A DNA stretch of 64,000 bases from Synergistaceae bacterium (GTDB lineage: Bacteria; Synergistota; Synergistia; Synergistales; Aminobacteriaceae), in NCBI GenBank assembly GCA_017451025.1, contig JAFSSM010000021.1, forward strand, positions 62,001-126,000, given 5' to 3'. Under the pieces are notes generated by a model that ran no database searches, was not told the origin of the DNA, and saw nothing but the letters and a program-made list of their open reading frames with translations. Of this stretch, positions 27,929-56,341 are shown piece by piece; within the stretch, counting starts at the first letter, position 1; every line of letters starts with the position of its first letter. Position numbers and translations under genes: made by a program.

Positions 27929-30900
27929 TTACTTGGCCGCAATCACCGGCTTATAGGTTACTCCTCCTTCAAGCCACGCAGATGCTATTATTTTCCTGTT
28001 TCGCGGAACTTCATTTATTTCCTCGCCGCCAGCATCAAAGAACTCTGCAATAGCGTCATCCTCCGAAGGGTCTCTATCCTGTGCGCGTGCAAGCCAGAAT
28101 AGTTTTCGGCCGGGCTTCGCGTTTCCCTCAAGCTCTATCCTCATGTCGTACATACCGCTTTCGTCAACCTTAATCTCCCCAAGTTCGAAAACTATCTCGT
28201 AACCTTCAGGAAGTGAGAGACCCGAAACCGGCTCTATCAGTGCCGAATTATTGCCGGTCTCGAAAAATCCGCCGGCCACCGCCGCAACAGGAGATGCTTC
28301 AATCTTCAGCTTCAGCGTCTTGCTCACGCTCTTGACCTCATTCGTCGCCGTAACCTTTACCCTGTAGGTCCCGGAACTAAGCGGTGTACCGGAGATTTTC
28401 CCTGTCTCTGCGTCCAGCTCAAGACCTGCAGGCATCGTTGACCTGTCGCACTTCCAGGTGATTTCGCCCGTACCCGTCGCGGAAAGCGTTGCGCTGTAAT
28501 CCTGCCACTGGTTGCCGTCAGGCAGACTCTTGGTCGTAATCGTTGGCTTGAGTGCATTAATTTCCAGCTTGTAGGACGTATTGGCATCACCGCCTGCGTT
28601 TTGCGCGTGAACACGAACCGTCCCGCTGAACGCAGCTTCTGATGTTCCGCTAAATACTCCGTCCTCAAACGTAATACCGTCCGGCAATTCGCCGTCGAGC
28701 GTCCAGGTTATCGGCTGAGTTCCGCTTGCTTTGAGCGTAACGTTATAGGCCTTGCCAGCTGTCCCGGCCTTGAGGTTCTTGGTCTTGATCTGCGGAGCTA
28801 CTGCGTTAATCTTCACCGTTACTTCCTTCGTGTCCTCGCCGTATTTGTTCTCGGCCTTAACGATGAACGTGTAACTGCCTGACCCTGTCGGTTTGCCCTT
28901 GAGCTGTCCGGATTTTGCGTTGATAGTGAGTCCTTCAGGAAGAGTGTCCGTATCCTCAACAGACCACGTTATCGGCGTTGTGCCTGTGGCCGTGAACTTC
29001 TTGCTGTAAGATTTTCCCGTAGTGCCGTCCTCAAGAGTTACGTCGTTAATCACAGGCTCAGAATCGATTACCAGCTTCAGAGTCTTGCTGAGTTTTCCTC
29101 CGGCGTTTTCGGCCTGAATCTTTACGTTGAACTTCCCCGATTCCTCAGGAGCACCCGTAATCGTGAGCACACCTTCATCAACTTCATAGCTGAGTCCCTT
29201 AGGCAGGCCGTCAACTTTCACCGTATTAACCTTTGACCCGGTAAGCTCAATAGGCATCTCGTAAATTTCGCCGGCCATTCCCGAGTTCAGGGACTTAGCC
29301 GTTATTGTCGGCCTTGTTACGCTGATTTTGAGGGTGCATGTCTTGGTGGCATCTCCGCCGGTGTTGTGCGCTGAAACATCAAACTTGAATGTGCCTCCCT
29401 CAGTGGGAGTTCCGCTTATTTTTGCTGTCCCGTCCTCCATGTCCTCAAACACGAGGCCGTCAGGGAGTTTATCCTCTTCGCACTCCCAATCTACAGTGCC
29501 TGTACCTGCACTGAGCGAGAACACTGTGCTGTAAGGTACATCAACAGTTCCCGCACGAATAGTTGCCTTGATTTTTGGCGCAACGTCTACCACGTTAAGC
29601 GTTATCTCGGTTGAAGCACTGCCTCCGCTGTTCGTCGCCGTAAGTGTGAATGTGTAATCACCGGCTGTTGTCGCTTTTCCGGTGAGCTTGCCGGTTGAGC
29701 TGTTGAGGGTCAGGCCGACGGGAAGAGTCCCCTCAGTTACCGACCATGTTACCGGATTGTTGGCGTGCACCTTGAACTTGTGATTGAAGGACTTGTTGAC
29801 GACAGCGTGCTCGTTTTCCTCCAGAAGTGCTTCCTTGTCTATCATCGGAGGTTCAACGTACTCTACACCGTCAACATAGAGCTTGTAGCCCATCGTTACG
29901 ACAATACAGGTCTCCTCAACATTGAGTGATGATACATAAGAATTTCCGCTCAATTCCCACTTGCTATAAGGTGCGAGCGAAACATCAACCGTACCGCTTG
30001 CGCCTGAGGGGTTGATTGTGCCATAAAAAGCGGCTTCGTTCGAGAGGTTCAATTCCAGCGAAGAAGAACTGTCCACGAGAATATTCCTGTAGATTGCTGA
30101 GTTGTCCGTAACATTGAGGGTAACTTTTCCGGATTCGGCCTTCATGAAATAGTCGTCCGCACCGTTGGGCTTGATATATACACCATTGGAAATGTTAATT
30201 TCTGCGGCAGCCCTGCTAACCTGGAAGACGGTACCCTTGCTGAATGTGAGACTTCCGCCCGTCATCGAGAAGGTGTTTACTGCGTCCGAATTATCACCGC
30301 GTATTAATACTGCCTGGCGGTTTGTGTCTGTCCCGTTCGACTTGCCGGTGAACGCAGAAATGTTGACGTTGTTGACCTCTACAGTACCGCCGCCCTCAAT
30401 TATCACAGTATTGGAGGCCGCAGTGCTAATTGTAGAGTCTTTCACAGTGATAGTACCGCCGCCCTTGCCGGAATATATCGCCGGTGATGAAGCCCCTGTT
30501 GTATCGAGAAGGATGGAATCTGCCTCGATAATGCCTCCGCCCGTAGCCATCAGGCCGCTTGAGTTATTGCTCTGGGTGTTGATTGCCGTGTTTGAGAGTG
30601 TAATTTTGGTGTCATCGCCGGAATTTTCGCCGTCCAGCTCCCCGCCGTAAGAGAAGACTGCATGACCGTATGCCGCACTCGACCGGATTTCCGAAGCCCC
30701 CTCTATCGTCAGCTCCGCACCCTCGTCCGCGTAAACTGCCGCGTTAGTTCCCAGTTCGTCATAGTTGCTGTTCTGGCCTGATGCATCACCCGTCTTAGTG
30801 ATTATTGCGTCGCTGAACTCTTCCGATTCGCCGGAAAGAGATAGTGCGTGAGTATTTGGTGTTGTCGATGTATATTCTTTTGCATGTCCAGTCCCGGCAC

Positions 30901-30952
30901 AAACCAGCATGATAACCGCCGCTAAAACAGACAAATATTTATTGCATTTCAT
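27929..30952 (-). CDS. Secreted protein: beta-helix passenger, six Ig-like (He_PIG) repeats, shared C-terminal module
   Basis: 1007 residues, exported by a signal peptide (MKCNKYLSVLAAVIMLVCAG, cut after AHA-like GHA near 24). Residues 40-360 are a Gly/Ser/Thr/Asn-rich repeat region like autotransporter passengers (AVYADEGAELTIEG). Then six Ig-like putative domains of about 85 residues, each with the LP.GL..... SGTP...G.Y.F.V.A.N pattern. The last 100 residues are a module also found in the other two Ig-repeat proteins of the window. No autotransporter barrel, LPXTG or Synergist-CTERM tail. Probably a surface or matrix protein; ligand unknown. Confidence 0.82.
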   Translation of the reverse strand: MKCNKYLSVLAAVIMLVCAGTGHAKEYTSTTPNTHALSLSGESEEFSDAIITKTGDASGQNSNYDELGTNAAVYADEGAELTIEGASEIRSSAAYGHAVFSYGGELDGENSGDDTKITLSNTAINTQSNNSSGLMATGGGIIEADSILLDTTGASSPAIYSGKGGGTITVKDSTISTAASNTVIIEGGGTVEVNNVNISAFTGKSNGTDTNRQAVLIRGDNSDAVNTFSMTGGSLTFSKGTVFQVSRAAAEINISNGVYIKPNGADDYFMKAESGKVTLNVTDNSAIYRNILVDSSSSLELNLSNEAAFYGTINPSGASGTVDVSLAPYSKWELSGNSYVSSLNVEETCIVVTMGYKLYVDGVEYVEPPMIDKEALLEENEHAVVNKSFNHKFKVHANNPVTWSVTEGTLPVGLTLNSSTGKLTGKATTAGDYTFTLTATNSGGSASTEITLNVVDVAPKIKATIRAGTVDVPYSTVFSLSAGTGTVDWECEEDKLPDGLVFEDMEDGTAKISGTPTEGGTFKFDVSAHNTGGDATKTCTLKISVTRPTITAKSLNSGMAGEIYEMPIELTGSKVNTVKVDGLPKGLSYEVDEGVLTITGAPEESGKFNVKIQAENAGGKLSKTLKLVIDSEPVINDVTLEDGTTGKSYSKKFTATGTTPITWSVEDTDTLPEGLTINAKSGQLKGKPTGSGSYTFIVKAENKYGEDTKEVTVKINAVAPQIKTKNLKAGTAGKAYNVTLKASGTQPITWTLDGELPDGITFEDGVFSGTSEAAFSGTVRVHAQNAGGDANTSYKLEINALKPTITTKSLPDGNQWQDYSATLSATGTGEITWKCDRSTMPAGLELDAETGKISGTPLSSGTYRVKVTATNEVKSVSKTLKLKIEASPVAAVAGGFFETGNNSALIEPVSGLSLPEGYEIVFELGEIKVDESGMYDMRIELEGNAKPGRKLFWLARAQDRDPSEDDAIAEFFDAGGEEINEVPRNRKIIASAWLEGGVTYKPVIAAK

Positions 30953-31042
30953 GGGGAACGCCTCCTTAGAATTTGCTGTAATTTGCTGGAAGTATTGATA
31001 ATTTATTAGTCGGATATATTCTGCGATAACTTAAATTTGCGC

Positions 31043-31080
31043 AAAAAATGAGACCCTCACGTTTTGTGTGAAGGCCTCAT
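31043..31080 (-). terminator. Terminator after tRNA-Pro
   Basis: Minus strand ATGAGGCCTTCAC pairs with GTGAGGGTCTCAT (few mismatches), loop ACAAAA, then six T. Separates the tRNA-Pro transcript from Ig-repeat gene 1. Confidence 0.82.
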
Positions 31081-31099
31081 CATTATTGTCTGGATTTTA

Positions 31100-31178
31100 T
31101 GGTCGGGACGAGAGGATTCGAACCTCCGACCCCCTGCACCCCATGCAGATGCGCTAAGCCAGACTGCGCTACGTCCCG
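31100..31178 (-). tRNA. tRNA-Pro (anticodon GGG)
   Basis: 79 bases with encoded CCA. Acceptor stem CGGGACG pairs with CGTCCCG; D arm GCGC/GCGC; anticodon loop ATGGGGT carries GGG, reading CCC; T loop TTCGAAT. It starts 10 bases after the stop of Ig-repeat gene 2 on the same strand and is followed by a terminator, so it may depend on that gene's transcript. Confidence 0.95.
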
Positions 31179-31188
31179 AAAACACAAG

Positions 31189-33912
31189 TTATTTTAGCGC
31201 AATTTCCCCATTCGTCAAGTTTTTCACGGCTATCACAGGATTATACACTCTGCCCTCGTTGAGCCAAACCGACACCGTAATTTTTCTGCTCTCCGGCACG
31301 CACGAAATCTCTCTGCCTTCCTCGTCGAAGAACTCCGCAATATTATCGTCGTCCGAAGGATCAGAGCTGTTAGCCAGCCAGATTAATGCGGCCCCTGCCG
31401 GAATATCCCCGCTGAGAGTTACGCTGAAGTCATGCATCCCGGAAATATCCGTGCTGACTGTCCCAAGTTCTGCCGCTATCACGTAATCATCAGGTGAAAT
31501 TATTCCGCCAAGTTCCGGCAATTCCTGCGGAGTGCTATTCACATCGTCAGGCACAAGGTTTTCACCGCTAGACCTGCTATTGTATGGAGCAGGATCCACC
31601 GTCAAGTCAAAACTCTTCGTGTCAGTGCCGTATGGGTTTGTCGCTATCACAACCAGAGTAAGATTCGAGAATGCATATTGAGGCTTGCCGGTTATTTGTC
31701 CGGACTTGGCATTGATGGAAATTCCTGTGTAGTAGTTGTTGCGTAATTCCCAAGTTATCGGCTTTGAACCGCTGGCAGTAATTTTTGCCTTGTAGTTTTT
31801 CCCTCTTGTGCCGTGGGGAAGAGTGGCTGCATTAATTGACGGCGGAGTCTCAACAGTGAGCGTGAGATTCTTTTTGGCCTTTCCGCCTGCGTTGGACGCT
31901 TCGAGTATCGCCTTATACTTGCCGCCGCTTGTCGGGGTTCCGGATATATTTATCGTACCGTCCGCCGAAACATAGTCATAGCTCAATCCTGGAGGAAGAT
32001 TAGTTACCTGCACGTTAATGGGCTGACTGCCTGTCAGCGTTGCCGCAAATGAAAACGCTCTGCCTACTGCTGGCACAGATGCCTTCGGGATTTTTGGAGT
32101 TACCAGTTTGGGCTTTTCTGCCTGAATGTTTACCTTGAGCTTCTTTGAGGATTCACCCTCTGAGTTTTTGGCGGTAGCTGTTACTGATTCCTTCCAGCCT
32201 TCGGTAGGAATACCGCTAAGGACTCCTGTTGCTGCGTCAAACGACAGTCCTGCGGGGAGATCTCCCTCCAGCGACCAGGTTATGCCTGTGCCTGTCTTGG
32301 AGGAGAAGACTGCTTCGTAGTAATAGCCGATCCTTTTGAACTTGCTCGTTATCTTGACGGCGGCTTTGGGTTTGTCGTTGTCCACAGTCAGAGTCATTGT
32401 GCGCTTGGTGCTACCTTTTGGGTTAGTGGCTATCAGTCCGATTTTGTATGTACCTAAGGCTGAAGGAGCACCCTTGAACTTGCCCTTTGAGGTCAGTTCA
32501 AGGCCGTCGGGCAAATTCTGGGCAGTCCAAGTGATGGGTTTATCGCCAGTTGCTTTTAGGGAGATGGTGTAGGATTTGTTCACCTTAGCATTTTTGAGGC
32601 TGTCAGTTTTGAAGTCGGGGCCTCCGTCGTAAGAGTCAGGTTCTGGTTCGGGGTCAGGCTCCGGGTCCGGGTCCGGGTCCGTATCTGAGTCTGCATATCC
32701 GATGACCATAGAAAACTCTTTATCAGAAGCTCCTCCGGCGTTACTGACGATAAGATGGAATCGCCAAGTCCCTTTTTGTTCAGGAATGCCAGAAATAACA
32801 CCCTCTGAATTTATAGACAAGCCAGCCGGAAGTGACGTCGACCTGAAACTTATGGGAGCTGTACCGGTTGCGGAAACGGTGAAGTTATACGGCTTATTTA
32901 CTTTGCCGGCCGGAAGGGAAGTAGTCGTAATTACAGGTGCTACATACACAGGCTGATCGGCCCCCTTAGCAACGTTAATGGTAAATTGCTTCTGCGAACT
33001 GTTGAAGCCGTTGGTTACATCTACGGTGAACGTGAAATTTCCTGTCGCGGTAGGTGTGCCATAGATTAAGCCATTGCTGCTCAATGTCAGGCCGCCGGGA
33101 AGAGAACCGCTCTTGACTATCCAGTCTACAGGATCGTTCCCTTCTACGGAGAGTTGAACTCTGTATAGTTCGTTGGTCTTGGCCTGAGACAGTGATTGCG
33201 TCGAAATCTTTGGAGCAGCAGGTATGTTATTAGCATCCTTGACTACGGCAATCGGGTAAAACCATGTATAGCCTATTACGTTGCCGCACGTCATGCTCAT
33301 TGAGAATGTTCCTGTTTGGGTAGGTGTTCCTTGAAGTGCTCCGACTGGATATGTTACACCATCTACTTCCTCGTAATACGGAAAAGTCATTCCTGCTGGA
33401 GCAGGGGCATAGTTCGGGTTTACTATTGACCAAGTTGCGCGCATGTGATCCGCCGTATCAAACCTGAAGTCGTATTTTTTACCCTTTATGAAGCCTATAA
33501 CGCTTCTTGTTTCTATGACAGGTTCAGTAGTCATCGCATACGGAGCAATTGTTATGCAGAAAGTTCTGGAGTCTCTTTCGCCAGACCCGGTAGCAGTAAC
33601 TGTAAACACATATTTTCCTGCCTTTGTCGGGGTGCCCTCTATATCGAAGAATGCCATCGCATTTGTACTCTTGGAGTTTGGGTAAAAACTTAAACTTAAT
33701 CCTGGAGGAAGTGAGCCGGATGTAACGTTCATTTTTAAAGTTTTACCGTCAGCGTTTCCTCCGAATGTGTTGGCATCTATGCTGAATTTATATTGCGTGT
33801 TTAGATACCCGTCAAATGGAGGAATGGGGTCTACTGTAATGGCAAGGCATGGTGAAACTGTCGCCAGCACAGCAAACACGCAGCACATAAGAACAAGTAA
33901 TTTCCTGAACAT
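31189..33912 (-). CDS. Secreted protein: eight Ig-like repeats, Asp-Pro linker, shared C-terminal module
   Basis: 907 residues with a signal peptide (MFRKLLVLMCCVFAVLAT, cut near residue 24). Eight Ig-like domains; between the fourth and fifth is an acidic proline linker of alternating DP/EP residues (encoded about 32640-32690) that should stand stiff. The final 100 residues match the C-terminal module of Ig-repeat protein 1 (IAEFFDEEGREI..VPESRKITVSVWL). AGGAGG lies 7-8 bases upstream of the ATG. No enzyme motif. Likely surface adhesin or matrix component. Confidence 0.82.
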   Translation of the reverse strand: MFRKLLVLMCCVFAVLATVSPCLAITVDPIPPFDGYLNTQYKFSIDANTFGGNADGKTLKMNVTSGSLPPGLSLSFYPNSKSTNAMAFFDIEGTPTKAGKYVFTVTATGSGERDSRTFCITIAPYAMTTEPVIETRSVIGFIKGKKYDFRFDTADHMRATWSIVNPNYAPAPAGMTFPYYEEVDGVTYPVGALQGTPTQTGTFSMSMTCGNVIGYTWFYPIAVVKDANNIPAAPKISTQSLSQAKTNELYRVQLSVEGNDPVDWIVKSGSLPGGLTLSSNGLIYGTPTATGNFTFTVDVTNGFNSSQKQFTINVAKGADQPVYVAPVITTTSLPAGKVNKPYNFTVSATGTAPISFRSTSLPAGLSINSEGVISGIPEQKGTWRFHLIVSNAGGASDKEFSMVIGYADSDTDPDPDPEPDPEPEPDSYDGGPDFKTDSLKNAKVNKSYTISLKATGDKPITWTAQNLPDGLELTSKGKFKGAPSALGTYKIGLIATNPKGSTKRTMTLTVDNDKPKAAVKITSKFKRIGYYYEAVFSSKTGTGITWSLEGDLPAGLSFDAATGVLSGIPTEGWKESVTATAKNSEGESSKKLKVNIQAEKPKLVTPKIPKASVPAVGRAFSFAATLTGSQPINVQVTNLPPGLSYDYVSADGTINISGTPTSGGKYKAILEASNAGGKAKKNLTLTVETPPSINAATLPHGTRGKNYKAKITASGSKPITWELRNNYYTGISINAKSGQITGKPQYAFSNLTLVVIATNPYGTDTKSFDLTVDPAPYNSRSSGENLVPDDVNSTPQELPELGGIISPDDYVIAAELGTVSTDISGMHDFSVTLSGDIPAGAALIWLANSSDPSDDDNIAEFFDEEGREISCVPESRKITVSVWLNEGRVYNPVIAVKNLTNGEIALK

Positions 33913-34297: not shown

Positions 34298-36637
34298 CTA
34301 GTCGTTTATCTGGTCGAGAATTACTCCGGCCGCAACCGCTACCTTGTAGATTATGTCGATCGTGTCCTTGAACGTCTCGATGGATTCCCTGTTCATGTAC
34401 TTCACCGGCACAACTATAGTATCTCCAGGCTCAACCTTCGCACTGAACCCGCGAGGAGCTGTCCACTGCTTGCTGGAGAGCATCGCCGTACTCCTGGTGA
34501 GTCTAACTGTGCTTCCGTCGCTCTTCAGCAGGTAGACCATTCTCTTGTGCGCAGTCTTGATCGCTCCGCCCGCCGCACTGATATAGCCGTTTATGCCCAT
34601 GTCCGGCCTGTAGACCTGAGACGATGACGTGTACACAGCACCCATCACGTGAACTACGAGCGGGGTATCCGGAATCGTGAGTGTATCGCCGTCCTGAAGC
34701 TCATAGTCATACGGAGTGCCTTTGATGTTCGCGGGGGTATCTACCTTCGTGATTACCCGCCCCATTATGTCGAGCTCGCGCAGGTTGTTGATGAGCTGCA
34801 TTCTGCGCTGGTACTCCGCACCGAACGCCGCGCTGTTGCTGAGTCCCGCACTGGCTGTGTTCTGCATCGCCTCCAGAAGCTCCTGCTGCATCCTGTCGGC
34901 AACCTGATTCAGTGCCTTCTTCTGTTCTTCCGCAACGCTAAGCCTCGTGAAAATTGCTCCCCTCAAGAATGCCCTGCGGGTGAATCCTCCGACACGTTCC
35001 AGCAAATCAGAGAGCTTTTCCCCTGCGAACATTGAGTACACTCCCGGCCTCTTGACCTCGCCCTCAACAGTTACGCGTATCTGCTGTTTCCAGTCGGGTA
35101 TCACCAAAACCGTGAGCTGATCTCCGTTCTCGAGGGTCATGTTCTGCATGGGGTCTCCGCGCAATGCCTGCAGTATGTCTATGTTGAAGCGTTCCTGCAC
35201 CGGGCCGTCAAGAGAAGGCGTTACTCGTGTAAGCTCTGCCTTTTCGCTGGCGGTACTGCTCAAGCCTCCTGCACGGTTTATCAGGTCCGAAATTCTGGTG
35301 TAGCCCGGAACTATCACGAACGATCCCTCGCGCATAACCTGGCCGTTTACGCTCGCGGTCGCCGCAAAATTGTAGATAGGGTACATCCTGATGATGTCGC
35401 CGTCCTGAAGCTCGGTGTTCTCGATCTCCTCGAAACTGCCCTCCGTTGCTCCGGCATATTCATTGTTGTAGACCCTGTAGAACTGAATGCGGCCTCGAGA
35501 AGTCTGCGCTCTGAGTCCTCCTGCAATGTAGAGCAGATCCTTCAAGCGTGTTGCACCGTTAAGCTCATAAACTCCCGGAGTCTGAACTTCACCTGCAACT
35601 CCGACCAGAGGCCCGACCGGCGGAATGTATATCACGTCGCCATTTTGGAGCCTTGCGTCCTGAGTCTTGTCGCCCTGAAGCAGCATTGCGTACATGTCAA
35701 AAATTGTGATGGTCTTGTTGCCGCGTTTAAGCTCAATTTTGCGCAGTGAGCCGTTCTGACTCGGGCCGCCCGAAGCCAATAATGCGTTCATCAGTGTTGC
35801 GAATGACGAGACAGAGTACGCACCGGGACGCTGGGCATTGCCGGTAACGTAGACGGTGATCGAGCGGAGCCTTCCCATCGACAAATTCATCTGGTAGCCG
35901 GTGTAATACTGGTTAAGGCGTGAAGCGATAATGCGCTCGCCCTCTGCCAGAGTGTAGCCCGCGAGCCTGACTGCCCCGATGTGCGGAATAGTTGCCATTC
36001 CGTCGCGGTTCACCATCACACGGAAACTGCCCTCCTCCGGGATGCCCCAGAGGGTCAGCGTAATTTCGTCGCCTGTACCTATCCTGTAGTCCTGAGTTAC
36101 CGGTACGTTGTCGATCGGGTCGTAATTCGTGATGACGCTGCTGTTCCATGCCTCATTAGTGTTTTGCGAGGAAGTCTGCCGTGTCTGTGAAGTAGTTGAG
36201 GTAGTTGTTGTGCGTCCTGTTGTGCTGAGTGAGGCCGAAGGAGGATTTAGCGGCTGGAAGAACGACATTCCGTAGCGCGGAAGTCTGCGCAAGAGAGACC
36301 CCATCGGATTCTTGGCCGTCTTCGAAAAAAGTATCTGGTCAAAATAAGTGTTTATCTCGTCTTCTGTGGGAGTGTCGCCTATCAGTTCCAGCCTCTTGAG
36401 ATCCTTAGAGGTCAACGTCCCTGCAGTAGTCTCTTCGTCCGGATGATAGCGCAGAGAGTCCGGCATAGCATATCCGTCCATGATGGTCTGGCCTGTGCCC
36501 TGCATTCCAGTAGCCAGACCCGACGAAGGCACAGCGATATTGCCGTAATTTGCGCCGTAAACACAGGAATACATAGACAGCACGAGTAATCCTGCCAAGA
36601 ATAATTTTTTGCCTTTTTTGCCCGAGAATTTCACCAT
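34298..36637 (-). CDS. Outer-membrane polysaccharide export protein with SLBB repeats (Wza/GfcE-like)
   Basis: 779 residues, signal peptide at 1-28. A low-complexity Ser/Thr stretch near 140-160 precedes the Poly_export domain (YRIGTGDEITLTLWGIPEEGSFRVMVNRDG, about 180-260). At least four SLBB repeats follow (V.G.VQ.PGVY.L..., VEGEVKRPGVYSM...), and a last hydrophobic helix (VAVAAGVIL). Longer than Wza (about 380), in the range of multi-SLBB export proteins. Start ATG 36637 with GAGGTGA upstream. Lies 18 bases after the YjbH-like gene. Confidence 0.88.
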   Translation of the reverse strand: MVKFSGKKGKKLFLAGLLVLSMYSCVYGANYGNIAVPSSGLATGMQGTGQTIMDGYAMPDSLRYHPDEETTAGTLTSKDLKRLELIGDTPTEDEINTYFDQILFSKTAKNPMGSLLRRLPRYGMSFFQPLNPPSASLSTTGRTTTTSTTSQTRQTSSQNTNEAWNSSVITNYDPIDNVPVTQDYRIGTGDEITLTLWGIPEEGSFRVMVNRDGMATIPHIGAVRLAGYTLAEGERIIASRLNQYYTGYQMNLSMGRLRSITVYVTGNAQRPGAYSVSSFATLMNALLASGGPSQNGSLRKIELKRGNKTITIFDMYAMLLQGDKTQDARLQNGDVIYIPPVGPLVGVAGEVQTPGVYELNGATRLKDLLYIAGGLRAQTSRGRIQFYRVYNNEYAGATEGSFEEIENTELQDGDIIRMYPIYNFAATASVNGQVMREGSFVIVPGYTRISDLINRAGGLSSTASEKAELTRVTPSLDGPVQERFNIDILQALRGDPMQNMTLENGDQLTVLVIPDWKQQIRVTVEGEVKRPGVYSMFAGEKLSDLLERVGGFTRRAFLRGAIFTRLSVAEEQKKALNQVADRMQQELLEAMQNTASAGLSNSAAFGAEYQRRMQLINNLRELDIMGRVITKVDTPANIKGTPYDYELQDGDTLTIPDTPLVVHVMGAVYTSSSQVYRPDMGINGYISAAGGAIKTAHKRMVYLLKSDGSTVRLTRSTAMLSSKQWTAPRGFSAKVEPGDTIVVPVKYMNRESIETFKDTIDIIYKVAVAAGVILDQIND

Positions 36638-36655
36638 TAATCACCTCAGAAAAAT

Positions 36656-38803
36656 TTAATGCACTATATACTCAAGAAGACTCTGCGTCTTGAGTGCGTC
36701 CTCTTCAAGTTTTGACTGGTTTTCGTCGTCGCTGTAGGAACAGTATGTGTTGAGCAGACGTTCCACGTTGCGCTTCATAGCTATCGGCCTGAGCTGGCTC
36801 ATCATGCGTTCAGGTGTTCGGATTACTCCTAAGTCTCGTCCTGCTTCGCTCTCCCACGTCGATTGAAGTATCGTGTTCTGTTCCCAGATATATGCGCTCG
36901 AATTGCCGAACCATGAACCGAACCAGCGTTCCGCAGGTATCTCCATGTGAACCCCTGCCCTCGTGAAATCTTTCCCCGATGTGTGAACGTCGGTATCTAT
37001 GTACCAGAAGCCCAGAGCAAGATCGTCCCAATGCCTGACGACCGAGTACTTAAATCCCTTGTCGCCGTCAGCAAACTTTCCGTAGTCCACCTGAACGTCA
37101 ACATCCAAGTCCGTGAAGTGATAGCCTCCCTGCACAAATGCAAGAGTCCTCCACTCTTCTTCGTCCGGCACTTCCGCTGTGCCGCCGGTGAAATACCTGT
37201 AGCGTCCGTCAACAAGCCCTCCGAATGAGTAAGGGTCCCTGTCGCGAAATTCGCTTAACCTTGTGCCGAGCCACCATTTACCATTACGGCCGTAATACCT
37301 GCTCCATAAATTCAGGCCGAACCATTCTTCATCGAGATAGCCTCCCTCGCCGATAAGCCAGAACCGGCCCTCTGAGCCGAAATGATTTGCGTACATCATG
37401 GCCGCGTTCTGAATGCGTATCTTGTCGTTGAAGTCCTTTTCCCACCACAGACCTAAACCGTCGCCGGTGTCTGCATGAACATAGAACGGAAAGCGTATAT
37501 CGATTATGCCGTCCCAGCCGTGAGAGTACCTGCCGTTGTAGAGTAAATCGATGCTCCATCTGTCCATATACTCCTCTGTGAGCGTCTGGTCTATTCGCGG
37601 CTCATACACCAGCATTGCCTTGACTTCGTTCTGTGCCTTTCCGCGCAGGATATGCTCCTCGTCTGCGTCCTCAAGTTCTTTTGCCGCCCAAGTGAACACA
37701 GCACTGTGAAGCGAGTCCTCTTCCCTGAGGCATCGTGCACGAATATCGAACAGCAATTCGCCCGGAAAACTTGCCTTAACTATCGGGATGCCTGCGTTTT
37801 TCTGGATCAGCACAAGCTCAGTAGTCTCCGGCATAACTTCGGAGAGCAGAATCAGAAGCCTCACCATCGCTTCGGCATGAGAAGAATAGCCGTAATTTTC
37901 GTAAGCAACGGATAATTTATGACCTTCCTCTGTTTCTTCGAGCTTCAGGTCAACATCACGTACACGGGTATATTTTTCGAGCCCGGACTTTAACTTCGCA
38001 AGAATTTCCTCATTGGTTGTGCTGTCCCAGCATGGAATACGGGTCTCATCCGGAGTGTTTATGTGCTTGCGTGATGCTCCCAGCAATGTACCGTCGAAGT
38101 TGAGACGCTGTGAAATCGTGAAAGCCCATTCGTCTCCTCGCTGATAACTCACTGAGCCTTCAAGCCCGAACGGTGTCTTCAGGACAATACCGACGTTGTA
38201 TTTCTGAGAGGGGCCTTCCTTGAGGACTCTCTGGCCGCTCCCGACATCACGGGTATAATCCAGCGGACTATATTCTGCCTTCACCGTCAGCCAGTTGTTC
38301 ACGTCCCACTCGAGGCCCCCGAAAACTCCGTTGAGCCTGTCAGTTCCCCAGCCTACAGTTGCGGCCAAGTCCCCCCATCTCCAAGTCGCGACCCAGTACC
38401 ATGACTTCATCAGCTCAGTGCCCATTATGTCGGCAACCCCTCCGGCAATTGACGGAAGGTACCATAATTTGGGGTTCTTGTTGCGCCAGAGCATAGCCTT
38501 CAGGTCAAGAGCTTTGTCTATATATCTGCGGCCTTCTCCTGCCCCGCCGCCTATCGAGTCGAACAGGGTGAAACGCGCATTAATCTCCAGCCACGGAAGA
38601 TATGCCATGTCCAGAAAATAGTATGCGTAAGGTGTGTCGTAAGTGTACCCGAATCTGCCAACTCCATCGTCAGGCATCTCTGCAGAAGGATATTCCCACA
38701 AGCCAGTTACGCCGTTGTTGGAGGCCGTAGAAGCAAGTGCAACACCTCCTGAAGCACCAGCCAGCAAAGCAACACCCAGCAGAATCTTGACTGCCTTCTG
38801 CAA
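36656..38803 (-). CDS. YjbH-like outer-membrane protein
   Basis: 715 residues from TTG 38803, with GAGGAG about 11 bases upstream. Signal peptide MQKAVKILLGVALLAGASG..ALA. The N-terminal part (NNGVTGLWEYPSAEMPDDGVGRFGYTY) and the beta-rich body with repeated Y/W-x-G strands resemble YjbH, a predicted beta-barrel of exopolysaccharide operons. With the SLBB protein it probably makes an outer-membrane exit for a polysaccharide; synthesis genes are not next to it. Confidence 0.8.
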   Translation of the reverse strand: MQKAVKILLGVALLAGASGGVALASTASNNGVTGLWEYPSAEMPDDGVGRFGYTYDTPYAYYFLDMAYLPWLEINARFTLFDSIGGGAGEGRRYIDKALDLKAMLWRNKNPKLWYLPSIAGGVADIMGTELMKSWYWVATWRWGDLAATVGWGTDRLNGVFGGLEWDVNNWLTVKAEYSPLDYTRDVGSGQRVLKEGPSQKYNVGIVLKTPFGLEGSVSYQRGDEWAFTISQRLNFDGTLLGASRKHINTPDETRIPCWDSTTNEEILAKLKSGLEKYTRVRDVDLKLEETEEGHKLSVAYENYGYSSHAEAMVRLLILLSEVMPETTELVLIQKNAGIPIVKASFPGELLFDIRARCLREEDSLHSAVFTWAAKELEDADEEHILRGKAQNEVKAMLVYEPRIDQTLTEEYMDRWSIDLLYNGRYSHGWDGIIDIRFPFYVHADTGDGLGLWWEKDFNDKIRIQNAAMMYANHFGSEGRFWLIGEGGYLDEEWFGLNLWSRYYGRNGKWWLGTRLSEFRDRDPYSFGGLVDGRYRYFTGGTAEVPDEEEWRTLAFVQGGYHFTDLDVDVQVDYGKFADGDKGFKYSVVRHWDDLALGFWYIDTDVHTSGKDFTRAGVHMEIPAERWFGSWFGNSSAYIWEQNTILQSTWESEAGRDLGVIRTPERMMSQLRPIAMKRNVERLLNTYCSYSDDENQSKLEEDALKTQSLLEYIVH

Positions 38804-47010: not shown

Positions 47011-48296
47011 TGTTCCGCACCGTCATAGACTATGTCCGCGATGACCATTGCCTCGCTTTCGGACAGCATTGACACGTAGAACTGGCTGCCCTTCTCCGTA
47101 ACAGCACGCCATAAGTTTATGCCAAGCTCCTCAAGAGTGATTGCCAGACCCTCATAATTGAGATTGACCGTTCTGGCCGGCGAGGAAAACGTCCCGGTTA
47201 CGTCAATCTTCGCAGTGCCCCGGCCGTTGGAGGCCTGGACTTCCGAGAAGGTCATATCGCAGCTCACAAGCTGGAGGTTCACCCGCATAGACGTATCCGC
47301 AGAAGGAGTCATGACTCCTCCGCCCCTTGTGGCTGACCATTTGCGCGAAAGAACCTCCGCAATATTATTGTCCTGGCTCTCTTGAACTTTTGTAAGAGGA
47401 AGGAGAATGCATATCTGCCCGTCAGGCTGAAGCCAGCTCATCAGCATATATATCTGCGTCTCCGACTGAATGAATATCAGCGAACTTATGCCTGCCCTGT
47501 TCGAGGCATTGGACATTTTGTAGATGCTGCCGTAGAAATTGTCGAGCCTGCACGAACTTTCCGTGTCGATGAACTGCATGAACATGTTGTTTCCAGTTCC
47601 AGCGTCGCCGGACTCGAGAACGGGCATCTCAATATACCCTGCTGTAGTCGCAACGGTGCTTGAAGCATCCGTGTCGTTGAAGCACACAGTGATGTAGCGC
47701 GGAAGGAGTGCTGCCATTTCGCCGTTCGCGTACCTGTAGCCTCCTGCTCTGGCTTCGTTGTACTTCCATGTTCCGTCAAGCATGTTCTCCGGCTTCAGAG
47801 CAGAGGAAATTCCTTCGGCCTTGCTCACTGACGCAGAGAACTCACACTCATAATCAAAGTAGGTGATTGCGCCGGAGAACTGAGCCTTGCCCTCGTCCGT
47901 CATGGTGATTGAGAGCGTTCCGTGAGGAGTCTGCGCAGTCCACGAAGCCGCGCCTGTCCTGTCGGTCGAGAGCGTCAGGTTCTCGAAGAACACGGGCAGG
48001 TACAAAGCCCCGTCAAGGATAATCAGCGCGGTCATATGAGCTGTACCCTGTTCGTCCTCAACATCGCATGAATCGAACACTGCCGCAATGTTCCTTATGG
48101 TGAGTGAGTAGTCGGAGCTTTCTGCTCTGACGGTTGCACTTCCGCTCGAGGCAACCCATGCCCCGGTCCATGAAGCATTTGCGTTTTCTGTGGTGTAGTC
48201 GTCGACGAACGATGAGGAGCTGCTTCCTCCGCACCCGCCGGACATGAACACGCACGTGCACACAAGGAGAAACGCGAGATACGCGCTTCTAGTCAT
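46974..48296 (-). CDS. Lipoprotein of unknown function
   Basis: 440 residues. Lipobox at the end of the signal peptide (FMSGGCGGSSSSS, Cys about 22) followed by a serine-rich spacer. The mature part is rich in beta strands with no recognised domain. Starts in the last 8 bases of the Synergist-CTERM gene and its end overlaps cbiB by 37 bases. Confidence 0.78.
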   Translation of the reverse strand: MTRSAYLAFLLVCTCVFMSGGCGGSSSSSFVDDYTTENANASWTGAWVASSGSATVRAESSDYSLTIRNIAAVFDSCDVEDEQGTAHMTALIILDGALYLPVFFENLTLSTDRTGAASWTAQTPHGTLSITMTDEGKAQFSGAITYFDYECEFSASVSKAEGISSALKPENMLDGTWKYNEARAGGYRYANGEMAALLPRYITVCFNDTDASSTVATTAGYIEMPVLESGDAGTGNNMFMQFIDTESSCRLDNFYGSIYKMSNASNRAGISSLIFIQSETQIYMLMSWLQPDGQICILLPLTKVQESQDNNIAEVLSRKWSATRGGGVMTPSADTSMRVNLQLVSCDMTFSEVQASNGRGTAKIDVTGTFSSPARTVNLNYEGLAITLEELGINLWRAVTEKGSQFYVSMLSESEAMVIADIVYDGAEQCLLTAVLSASE

Positions 48297-49143
48297 GATG
48301 CTTTCTCCAGATGAGCACAGCCGCTAACGCAAGCCCCAAGCCTGACGCAGAGCACCCTCCGCCGGAAGATTCCTGCTCCCGCTCCTGCTCCTGAGCTTCT
48401 GCGGAAGAGGCCTGACCGCTCACAGTCAGATTGCCGCTCACATCATCTGGAGTGTTGCCGGAAATATTGCAGTTGACGGCAGACGCAGACGCACTGCCCT
48501 CGATACATATTCCTCCGCTCCCAAAGCGGGCAGAGTTGCCGGTGATGGTGCAGTTAATCAGCTCGATATTGCCTTTTTCCGCGTAAATGCCTCCGCCCTG
48601 GAGCGAAACATAATTGCCGGAAATATCGCAGCTTATGAACCGTGCCTTGCTTTCTCCGCCCTGCATAGCAAAACTTACTCCGCCTCCCACGAAGCTCGCA
48701 TTGTTGCCGGTTATCCTGCAGTTGATGATGTCAATGCTGCTTGCGTCAATATTGATGCCTCCGCCCTCAAAGACGTATCCGCCGCCGCCGCCGCCGGTTA
48801 TGGTGAGGTTCTCGATAACGATGCCCTGACCTTGAAGCCGGAGAACTCTGCTTTTGCCCTGAGCGTCGAGCACTGAGCCTCTGGGACTGCGTATAGTGAT
48901 GGCCTTCTTGACGTTAATCTGGCTGTCGAGCTTGAAGTTCCCGTTGAGAATAATAATTCCTCCTGCGGGAATAATGTTGACGGCGTTCTCTATGGTCTTT
49001 CCCTGAGAGCCGGTGATGTTGATAACTTTATCCCCGACGGAAGTGTAGTTGCCTTCGCCGAGATCGACCATGCTGATTGTCTCAGCGTAAGCCGCCGACG
49101 CAGCAGCGAGGACTGCCAGTGCAAAAATTTTCGTGAGCTTCAT
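48289..49143 (-). CDS. Exported right-handed beta-helix protein with Synergist-CTERM tail
   Basis: 284 residues, cleavable signal (MKLTKIFALAVLAAASAAYA). Residues 45-235 carry parallel beta-helix coils (I.NCTITGNSARFGSGGI-type turns) of the kind in polymorphic outer-membrane and pectate-lyase-like proteins. After an E/Q-rich spacer, the C terminus is SSGGGC, a hydrophobic helix and WRKHHD: the Synergist-CTERM pattern, thought to be a sorting and processing signal. Best taxonomic marker in the window. Confidence 0.85.
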   Translation of the reverse strand: MKLTKIFALAVLAAASAAYAETISMVDLGEGNYTSVGDKVINITGSQGKTIENAVNIIPAGGIIILNGNFKLDSQINVKKAITIRSPRGSVLDAQGKSRVLRLQGQGIVIENLTITGGGGGGYVFEGGGINIDASSIDIINCRITGNNASFVGGGVSFAMQGGESKARFISCDISGNYVSLQGGGIYAEKGNIELINCTITGNSARFGSGGICIEGSASASAVNCNISGNTPDDVSGNLTVSGQASSAEAQEQEREQESSGGGCSASGLGLALAAVLIWRKHHD

Positions 49144-53584: not shown

Positions 53585-53695
53585 CATTTTGTCTTAAATC
53601 CTCCGAACACATAAAGATAATAGAGAGAATAAAGCCTTGTTGTCTGTTTATGGCAGATGACGGGCTAATTTTTTGTGCTTACAGGAGGCAGAATA

Positions 53696-56341
53696 ATGAA
53701 GAGATTCAGAAGTAAAGTGTTAATGCTGGCGGTTATGATGCTGGCAATATGTGCAGAGGCATGGGCTGACGTGGAAATCAACGAGACGAATTTTCCTGAT
53801 GATTTGTTTCGTAACTATGTCAGCGGTACTTTCGACAAGGACAGTAATGGAACTCTGAGTAATGCGGAAATTGCCACAGTAACACGTATGGATGCATTAC
53901 ATTCTTCGCGTATATCATCGTTGAAGGGCATAGAACATTTTACTGCTTTAATGATATTAAACTGCTACAAGGATGAGTTGACATCACTAAATGTGAGAAA
54001 AAACGCCGCTTTGGAAACTCTACGTTGCAGCTATAACCAGTTAAAGACTCTTGACGTGAGCAGAAATACCGCTTTGCGAATTCTGTATTGCGACAATAAC
54101 CAGTTCTCGGCTATTGATGTGAGCGGGTGTTCTGTGTTGAGTGAGCTGTCCTGCAGTTTTCCAATAAAGGATTCAGGCGAAGGGTTCGAGTTCAATTTGA
54201 TAGACTTCAAAAGAGCATATAACCTTGACGGAGATTATGACTCTAGCAAGAGTTTTTACGCCTATAGTGAACTTGGTTGGATTTTTTCTTCATCAACATC
54301 CCAAACTGCTAGAGCAACTTTCGATGTAGCGTCAAGCATTATGTATTTTCCAAAGTATAAGTCAGAAAAGTTATCGTACATTAACTTTTATTTCAAGCCT
54401 ACAGCAGTAGATAGACCAACAATGAGAGTAATGGTGTATCCTTCTTCATCAGAGACAGAAGACCCCGCAGATTTCATCACAATTTCTTCACTGCCTGACT
54501 GCTCGACAGATATTCCCTACACTTACAGCCTCACAGAATCCGAATCATCTTCCGCGGTCTGGACTCTCATCAGCGGAGACCTTCCCGACGGCCTCACTCT
54601 CTCATCTGACGGCACAATCTCAGGCACTCCGTCAACTGCAGGGACTTTCTCGTTCACCGTTCAGGCACAATCAGGTTCAGCGACAGAGTCAAAGCTATTC
54701 ACAATCAATGTAACCTTTTCGCCGGTACGCGCACCGAAAATCAAGACCGACTCACTTCCTGACGGCTTCATTAACTCACCTTACGGCCAAAAACTTACAG
54801 CTTCAGGAACGTCAACAGGCTTAACGACTCTAACATGGTCGGCTGATAATCTCCCTGACGGTTTCACTCTCAGCAAATCAGGCTATCTATCTGGCACTCC
54901 GAAAATTGAAGGCACATTCACTTTCACAGTTCAGGCCGCAAATTCGGTGAACTATGACAGAAAAACTCTCACGCTGAAAATCTCTGCTGCTCCGTCACAC
55001 TCTAAGCCTTCAATCACAACAAGCTCGCCCCATACTGCCGGAACAGGAGAGCAATATACTTGTCAGCTTATGGCTTCAGGGACTCCGCCGTTCACGTGGG
55101 CAGTCAAGGGAAAATTGCCGGACGGACTCAGCATAAATGACTCAGGACTGATTACCGCCACTCCGTCAAAGAAGGGGAAGAAGAAAATTACTGTTACAGC
55201 CAGCAACGATTTCGGCAAGGACACGAAGAAAATAACCCTGAATGTTTATGATCTGCCTGTAATCGTAACAGAGACTCTCAAGAATGCGACTGTGGCCAAG
55301 AAGTATAATGCTTCCTTCAAGGCTAAGGGGACTGCTCCGTTGACGTGGGAATTTGAGGGCTATCTTCCTGACGGCCTCAAGATTGACGAAAAGAGGCACA
55401 AAATCTCAGGCACTCCGACAAAGAACACTGCCGGCGAGATACGTTTGACTGTGAGCAATTCTGCAGGCGAGCTGTCAAGAGTTTTTACTATGAAAGCTGA
55501 TGCTATAGTGCCAGTCATCAAGACAAAGAAACTCAAGGACGGAACTTACGGCAAGAGCTACAACTCTGCAGTCAAGGTTAAAGGCACTGCACCGATAACA
55601 TTATCACTCTCCGGAAGTCTGCCTGAAGGTCTCTCATTTAACAACAAATCAGGAAGTATTACAGGGACTCCGATTGAGGTATGCACTGACCGTAAAATAG
55701 TCATCACAGCGTCAAACATGGGAGTCAGTGCGGATAAAGAATACTCACTCACAATCAAGGCCGTTGCTCCGAAGATTACGACTAAATCACTGGCCAATGC
55801 CACACAGGGAACTGCTTACTCTGCACAGCTTGAGGCAACAGGAACTCCGGCTATAACTTGGAGTGCGTCGGGACTTCCGGCGGGCTTGAGCATTAGTCAG
55901 AGCGGAGAGATTTCCGGGACTCCGACAGAATCAGGCAAGTTTACGGTGAAAATTACGGCGGCAAATTCGGCCAAGTCAGCAAAGAAAAGCTACAAGCTGA
56001 ATGTTACAGCAAACAGCACCAGCGCAAGCAATAAATCTCCGTCATCTATCACGGTGAATAACTCACAGACTCATAATATCTCAGTGAATGAGAATGATGG
56101 TGTGAGCACTATGCTTCCGGGAAATTATGCCGCTAAAGATTCTTTGCCGGTTAATGACGGGCTAATTGTGGTGTATGAGTTCCCGGAAATCAGTTCAATA
56201 GTGGAGTTCTTTGACGAGAATGGAGCAGAAATTGATTCAGTTCCGGAGAGCAGGAATGTAGTAGTGTCCGTTTGGTTCAATGCAAAGACAATCTATAACC
56301 CGGCATTAGCTGTAAAACCGGCAGCATATCCCGCAGAATAA
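53696..56341 (+). CDS. Secreted protein: EF-hand-like/LRR start, six Ig-like repeats, shortened C-terminal module
   Basis: 881 residues from ATG 53696 with AGGAGG upstream. Signal peptide (VLMLAVMMLAICAEAWA). Residues 25-70 give INETNFPDDLFRNYV and a calcium-loop-like DKDSNGTLSNAE; residues 75-150 are leucine-rich repeats (L..LDVSRNTALRILYCDNNQ). Six Ig-like domains follow from about 265. The final 65 residues match only the second half of the module in the other two proteins (VEFFDENGAEIDSVPESR...VSVWF). Single gene, likely surface exposed. Confidence 0.82.
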   Translation: MKRFRSKVLMLAVMMLAICAEAWADVEINETNFPDDLFRNYVSGTFDKDSNGTLSNAEIATVTRMDALHSSRISSLKGIEHFTALMILNCYKDELTSLNVRKNAALETLRCSYNQLKTLDVSRNTALRILYCDNNQFSAIDVSGCSVLSELSCSFPIKDSGEGFEFNLIDFKRAYNLDGDYDSSKSFYAYSELGWIFSSSTSQTARATFDVASSIMYFPKYKSEKLSYINFYFKPTAVDRPTMRVMVYPSSSETEDPADFITISSLPDCSTDIPYTYSLTESESSSAVWTLISGDLPDGLTLSSDGTISGTPSTAGTFSFTVQAQSGSATESKLFTINVTFSPVRAPKIKTDSLPDGFINSPYGQKLTASGTSTGLTTLTWSADNLPDGFTLSKSGYLSGTPKIEGTFTFTVQAANSVNYDRKTLTLKISAAPSHSKPSITTSSPHTAGTGEQYTCQLMASGTPPFTWAVKGKLPDGLSINDSGLITATPSKKGKKKITVTASNDFGKDTKKITLNVYDLPVIVTETLKNATVAKKYNASFKAKGTAPLTWEFEGYLPDGLKIDEKRHKISGTPTKNTAGEIRLTVSNSAGELSRVFTMKADAIVPVIKTKKLKDGTYGKSYNSAVKVKGTAPITLSLSGSLPEGLSFNNKSGSITGTPIEVCTDRKIVITASNMGVSADKEYSLTIKAVAPKITTKSLANATQGTAYSAQLEATGTPAITWSASGLPAGLSISQSGEISGTPTESGKFTVKITAANSAKSAKKSYKLNVTANSTSASNKSPSSITVNNSQTHNISVNENDGVSTMLPGNYAAKDSLPVNDGLIVVYEFPEISSIVEFFDENGAEIDSVPESRNVVVSVWFNAKTIYNPALAVKPAAYPAE

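Follow-up and report, generated by a model that had tools for sequence, protein, structure and literature searches.

A C-terminal module of about 90–100 residues, carried by proteins with otherwise different bodies, was found to be an undescribed separate folded domain which, judging from profile comparison and a tree of its copies, would descend from a domain standing before the Synergist-CTERM sorting tag, with the tag lost afterwards. The module is encoded in a stretch of 64,000 bp of a Synergistaceae genome, here called the window, for which the initial annotation had pointed out the shared tail of two ORFs on the minus strand and taken it for an export, anchoring or assembly tag unrelated to Synergist-CTERM. 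The observation was confirmed and is larger than first claimed, as the module forms a genus-wide family with a third, half copy in the window; the supposed unrelatedness had to be corrected.

Module-bearing proteins of the window

A search of the window's own genome revealed that the tails of the two ORFs (carriers 1 and 2) had 53% identity across 85 residues (E 1.6e-21), bearing out the alignment proposed initially. The features of these ORFs, of a third carrier and of the secretion genes considered below are as follows.

27929..30952, minus strand: carrier 1, 1007 aa (ORF list and Pfam search)
30881..30952, minus strand: Sec-type signal peptide of carrier 1, MKCNKYLSVLAAVIMLVCAGTGHA (by eye and heuristic)
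27932..28201, minus strand: C-terminal module of carrier 1, 90 residues (own-genome and profile searches, AlphaFold2)
28040..28060, minus strand: DDAIAEF in the carrier 1 module, short helix and strand (AlphaFold2 models, residue comparison)
31189..33912, minus strand: carrier 2, 907 aa (ORF list and Pfam search)
33841..33912, minus strand: Sec-type signal peptide of carrier 2, MFRKLLVLMCCVFAVLATVSPCLA (by eye and heuristic)
31219..31485, minus strand: C-terminal module of carrier 2 (own-genome and profile searches)
53675..56341, plus strand: carrier 3 (ORF and Pfam search)
56186..56317, plus strand: C-terminal half of the module in carrier 3 (genome search and ORF reading)
L266:2709-3245 and L267, contigs of the window's genome lying outside the window: MrtS and type II secretion operon

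Carrier 1 begins with a signal peptide and a repetitive N-terminal half that matched no Pfam family, continues with six or more He_PIG Ig repeats and ends in the module, the final residue of which directly precedes the stop codon (0 residues between). In carrier 2 a signal peptide is followed by seven or more He_PIG Ig repeats, and the module lies close to the C-terminal end, with 11 residues after it (KNLTNGEIALK) and the stop codon, with a longer profile still including the first K. The N-terminal Sec signal peptides of both were clear by eye and by the heuristic, and the C-terminal GGC motif, membrane helix and basic end were absent from both, in line with the initial statement that neither has the GGGC tail seen at 48289. 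Carrier 3 combines a signal peptide, LRR-like repeats and He_PIG repeats with a terminal half module, whose N-terminal half is short of about 38 residues, with the frame kept; it is possibly a decaying copy. A tRNA-Pro (ggg) was located between carriers 1 and 2 at 31100-31178 (minus strand), overlapped in antisense by an ORF at 31064-31486 (plus strand) that is probably no gene.

All He_PIG matches in carriers 1 and 2 lay upstream of the module, and the module itself matched neither He_PIG or another Ig family profile nor any recurrent Pfam family, in agreement with the initial view that the Ig repeats and the shared end are different things. No NCBIfam model and no sequence in the PDB gave a significant match to it either. 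In the window's genome (2.35 Mb), 17 module matches were obtained by single-sequence search and 25–27 by profiles; nine ORFs end in the module, three of them being those of the window (27929-30952, 31189-33912 and 53675-56341), and in other ORFs it is found shortly before a Synergist-CTERM tail, or internally. The bodies preceding it were 1) Ig repeats with a repetitive, beta-helix-like N-terminal half, 2) LRR-like and Ig repeats, 3) a papain-like peptidase with a lectin-like domain and Ig repeats, and 4) in three cases, sequences with no Pfam match at all. The claim of a fixed end on different bodies is thus upheld over a wider range of proteins, and the module provides a means of recognizing many in which nothing but Ig repeats, or no known domain at all, can be seen otherwise.

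The module and the Synergist-CTERM tag

The position of the module relative to the stop codon was determined for 176 distinct copies from the window's genome and related genomes. In 96 of them the module ended 0–7 residues from the stop codon, and in 18 it was followed by an acidic tail of 19–86 residues; the end of a GGC, hydrophobic and basic tail lay 31–110 residues downstream of 51 copies (49 assigned by rule, plus L150 and L203 by eye), five copies lay further upstream in tagged proteins, and six were cut or unclassified. The acidic tail was conserved, with an SLDxAEEGDTVTxxALEEA-like sequence, in L062, L067, L072, L078, L081 and L082, which constitute a separate paralog group. Within the tag-less lineage the module was always at the C-terminal end, and signal-peptide-like N termini were present in 45 of 49 complete carriers versus 106 of 251 control ORFs by a permissive heuristic. 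A strictly C-terminal place is thus a property of the tag-less lineage, whereas other copies precede a tag or are internal.

Profile-profile comparison of the modules of the tagged class with those of the tag-less class gave an hhalign probability of 99.2% (E 2e-19), by which homology of the two layouts is well supported, and the proposed independence from Synergist-CTERM is not supported. Some Synergist-CTERM proteins have no module (e.g., L147 and the product of 48289-49143 in the window), so the module is not required for the tagged route. The latter gene, on the minus strand, encodes a small beta-helix protein of NosD-like type, whose GGGC tail resembles Synergist-CTERM.

Among 188 genomes of the phylum searched with a module profile of 44 rows, one of which (left out for structure prediction) deviated from its true sequence at a few residues, all 43 of the window's genus had a match at E 0.01 or better; beyond the genus, the module was also present in g25 (same family, 4 genomes) and g55 (another family). 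The matches in g12 and g17 were both marginal and were discarded, that of g12 appearing by eye to be RNA polymerase alpha. In g25 and g55, all 22 module copies preceded a GGC tail, two of these tails being cut by a contig end. In named genomes, 55 module loci, collected with a search pattern that favors the tag-less class, were all labelled Synergistaceae, Synergistales or Fretibacterium and came mostly from goat or deer.

In a maximum-likelihood tree of 135 modules (107 columns), in which many forks are open, 80 of the 81 tag-less rows fell into one cluster (support 99/85), and the remaining one joined three tagged rows in the next cluster (100/92). The tag state required two changes on this tree versus a minimum of one, and a single clade of all tag-less rows was not rejected (p-AU 0.256). 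These results suggest that the tag-less class nests, essentially as one cluster, inside the tagged class, that the tagged layout would be the older one and that the tag was lost in the module lineage, the last point being well supported on these phylogenetic grounds. Since other genera hold tagged copies only, the simplest reading is that the tag was lost once, or perhaps twice, after which the module was duplicated onto many bodies of unrelated kinds within a single genus of the ruminant gut. It was also noted that Synergist-CTERM proteins numbered 1–10 per genome in the window's genus, apparently a lower number than many of the other tagged genera have, which might mean that tag-less proteins took the place of some; detection bias may also be at work.

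Predicted fold and secretion machinery

For the tag-less module, AlphaFold2 predicted with confidence an all-beta fold resembling a sandwich (pLDDT 95.1, pTM 0.84), and the model of the tagged module (pLDDT 86.1) had the same strand order. No significant fold match to either was found among solved structures (PDB), and none to the tag-less model among viral models. Where the tagged module was modelled with a low-confidence loop, the tag-less one has a short, confident helix, which is the site of the DD-x-I motif; in carrier 1 this is the DDAIAEF segment, both Asp and the Ile being markers of the tag-less lineage. Positions conserved specifically in that lineage include Y8, A12, D55, D56, I58, S81, W83, L84, A95 and V96 (97-residue numbering). 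In the three tagged rows near the base of the tag-less lineage, the Trp and a basic last residue were already present, as were both Asp in two of them.

The pairing of Synergist-CTERM with MrtS, its predicted protease, was already known, as the NCBIfam name shows. The window's genome had 10 matches to TIGR04564 (Synergist-CTERM), an MrtS scoring 254 bits (NF040589, cut-off 130) and, at G000:C35, an operon for type II secretion that includes GspC, D, E, F, G, K, L and N, in which the Synergistota-type GspC and GspL were above their cut-offs; a GspM-like gene was also present. Over 147 Synergistota genomes, with presence defined as a best E below 1e-60, the tag and a GspD-type secretin occurred together in 101, the tag only in 9 (mostly fragmented assemblies), the secretin only in 4 and neither in 33 (13 discordant; Fisher p 3e-20, uncorrected for kinship of the genomes). 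Similarly, the tag and a CPBP protease, which was usually single-copy, were both present in 104 genomes, with 6 having the tag only, 4 the protease only and 33 neither (10 discordant; p 2e-22, likewise uncorrected for kinship). GspD and MrtS track the Synergist-CTERM tag and not the module specifically, and the association of tag and secretin agrees with what has been published for GlyGly-CTERM and MYXO-CTERM.

The initial annotation had proposed looking for a processing gene that co-occurs with the module. No gene family recurred in more than 8 of 69 stretches around carriers, the commonest neighbors being housekeeping genes beside apparently orthologous carriers; MrtS and the type II system are in the genome, but they belong to the tagged system.

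Possible function and comparison with known systems

In Vibrio cholerae VesB, an Ig fold precedes a linker and a GlyGly-CTERM; display of beta-lactamase on the cell surface is epsD-dependent and requires the Ig fold as well as the GlyGly-CTERM, and the Ig fold alone exported no reporter (PMC13393428). By analogy, it is possible that the module, in the older layout the last folded domain of surface proteins before the Synergist-CTERM sorting tag, is a type II-facing export domain that makes folded cargo acceptable to type II secretion. The tag-less lineage would dispense with the anchor and take the same type II route with MrtS not used, and its carriers might then be set free or kept at the cell surface through non-covalent contacts. 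Export, release and a role of the DDxI/Trp patch are all inferences here. Our confidence in this secretion reading stays a little under even because the VesB Ig fold alone was insufficient for export, for which reason the tag-less module might be insufficient as well. Of the three functions named by the initial annotation, export is the likeliest, and anchoring is less probable, since it is precisely the anchor that these proteins lack. A stronger form, in which the module would be a portable, self-sufficient type II secretion signal that, after about one tag loss, acquired a patch for recognition (DDxI helix and Trp) with which many unrelated proteins per genome now cross the outer membrane free of anchoring, appears rather unlikely to us.

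The basis of cargo choice in type II secretion is a long-standing open question because its cargoes have no obvious shared signal. A single domain borne by unrelated bodies, alongside a membrane tag in one lineage and free of it in the sister lineage, would amount to a test of this choice set up by nature, and would also explain how part of a genus's surface proteome shifted from anchored to tag-free.

We consider it doubtful that the module is a passive end-cap or membrane-proximal spacer which stabilizes long repeat proteins with no recognition role, and which would have been kept after tag loss since an Ig array with an exposed end tends to aggregate or to be degraded by proteases. In favor of a cap, most residues conserved in both module classes have a core-like character (L, G, F, Y, P), the acidic extension of the 18 copies described above implies that a free end is not needed, and VesB's Ig fold by itself increased reporter activity in the periplasm, possibly via stability, with no export (PMC13393428). 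However, a passive cap would not need the near-invariant DD-x-I, W, S and terminal AV, which are specific to the tag-less lineage, absent from the tagged class and kept on unrelated bodies, and the module is also found on bodies with no Ig repeats.

Less probable is a surface-retention domain that binds an envelope sugar, the S-layer or an outer-membrane protein in place of the lipid anchor. Tagged relatives are predicted to be surface-anchored, such that loss of the anchor would call for a substitute, and the tag-less lineage has a new conserved patch (DDxI, W, basic end), in part shared by the three tagged copies near its base. Carriers 1 and 2 also adjoin genes at 34298-38803 (minus strand) for an SLBB/Wza-like polysaccharide export protein and a YjbH-like protein, but this neighborhood did not recur at other carriers, making the exopolysaccharide link a local one, and no carbohydrate-binding family or fold was matched. 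It is very improbable that the module marks substrates for a dedicated, as yet undescribed route akin to type IX secretion, whose C-terminal domains it resembles in length, beta-sandwich fold, strict C-terminal place and variety of bodies: none of 46 relatives had a SprA_N match (a weak point, the control genomes being silent too), no type IX C-terminal domain model of Pfam or NCBIfam matched, and the tagged layout with the type II system already supplies a sufficient known route.

Of the known systems, the type IX C-terminal domain is a similar-sized beta-sandwich at the end of diverse secreted proteins, whereas the module has no family match and would descend from a tagged layout tied to type II secretion. 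The PPC domain (PF04151) is likewise a C-terminal beta domain on secreted enzymes; the module models had weak, non-significant fold similarity (TM 0.4-0.5) to the subtilase Tk-SP, which we take to bear a C-terminal beta domain of this kind. As a PPC domain the module was rejected, with no PF04151 match over the cut-off in 61 relatives and none at all in the window's genome. The Synergist-CTERM/MrtS system (TIGR04564/NF040589) overlaps with the present case in that 51 module copies precede such a tag and MrtS is in the genome, but carriers 1 and 2 have no tag and the module is a separate folded domain.

The MYXO-CTERM/myxosortase system shares with this one a Cys-containing tag, a CPBP-family protease and type II secretion, and Myxococcus xanthus TraA deprived of its MYXO-CTERM was released through type II secretion (PMC11980579), the state predicted for tag-less carriers. 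It differs in that the available part of that source describes no equivalent upstream domain, and in that the tag loss considered here would be natural and followed by paralog expansion. VesB is likened to the module by place and fold class, not by homology; its glycine motif is cut by the rhomboid protease rhombosortase, whereas Synergist-CTERM combines a Cys motif with a CPBP protease, and most module copies collected from the window's genus have no tag. Nevertheless, both systems have a small beta-sandwich immediately followed by a linker and a tripartite sorting tag, and in both an intramembrane protease and type II secretion are found in the same organism.
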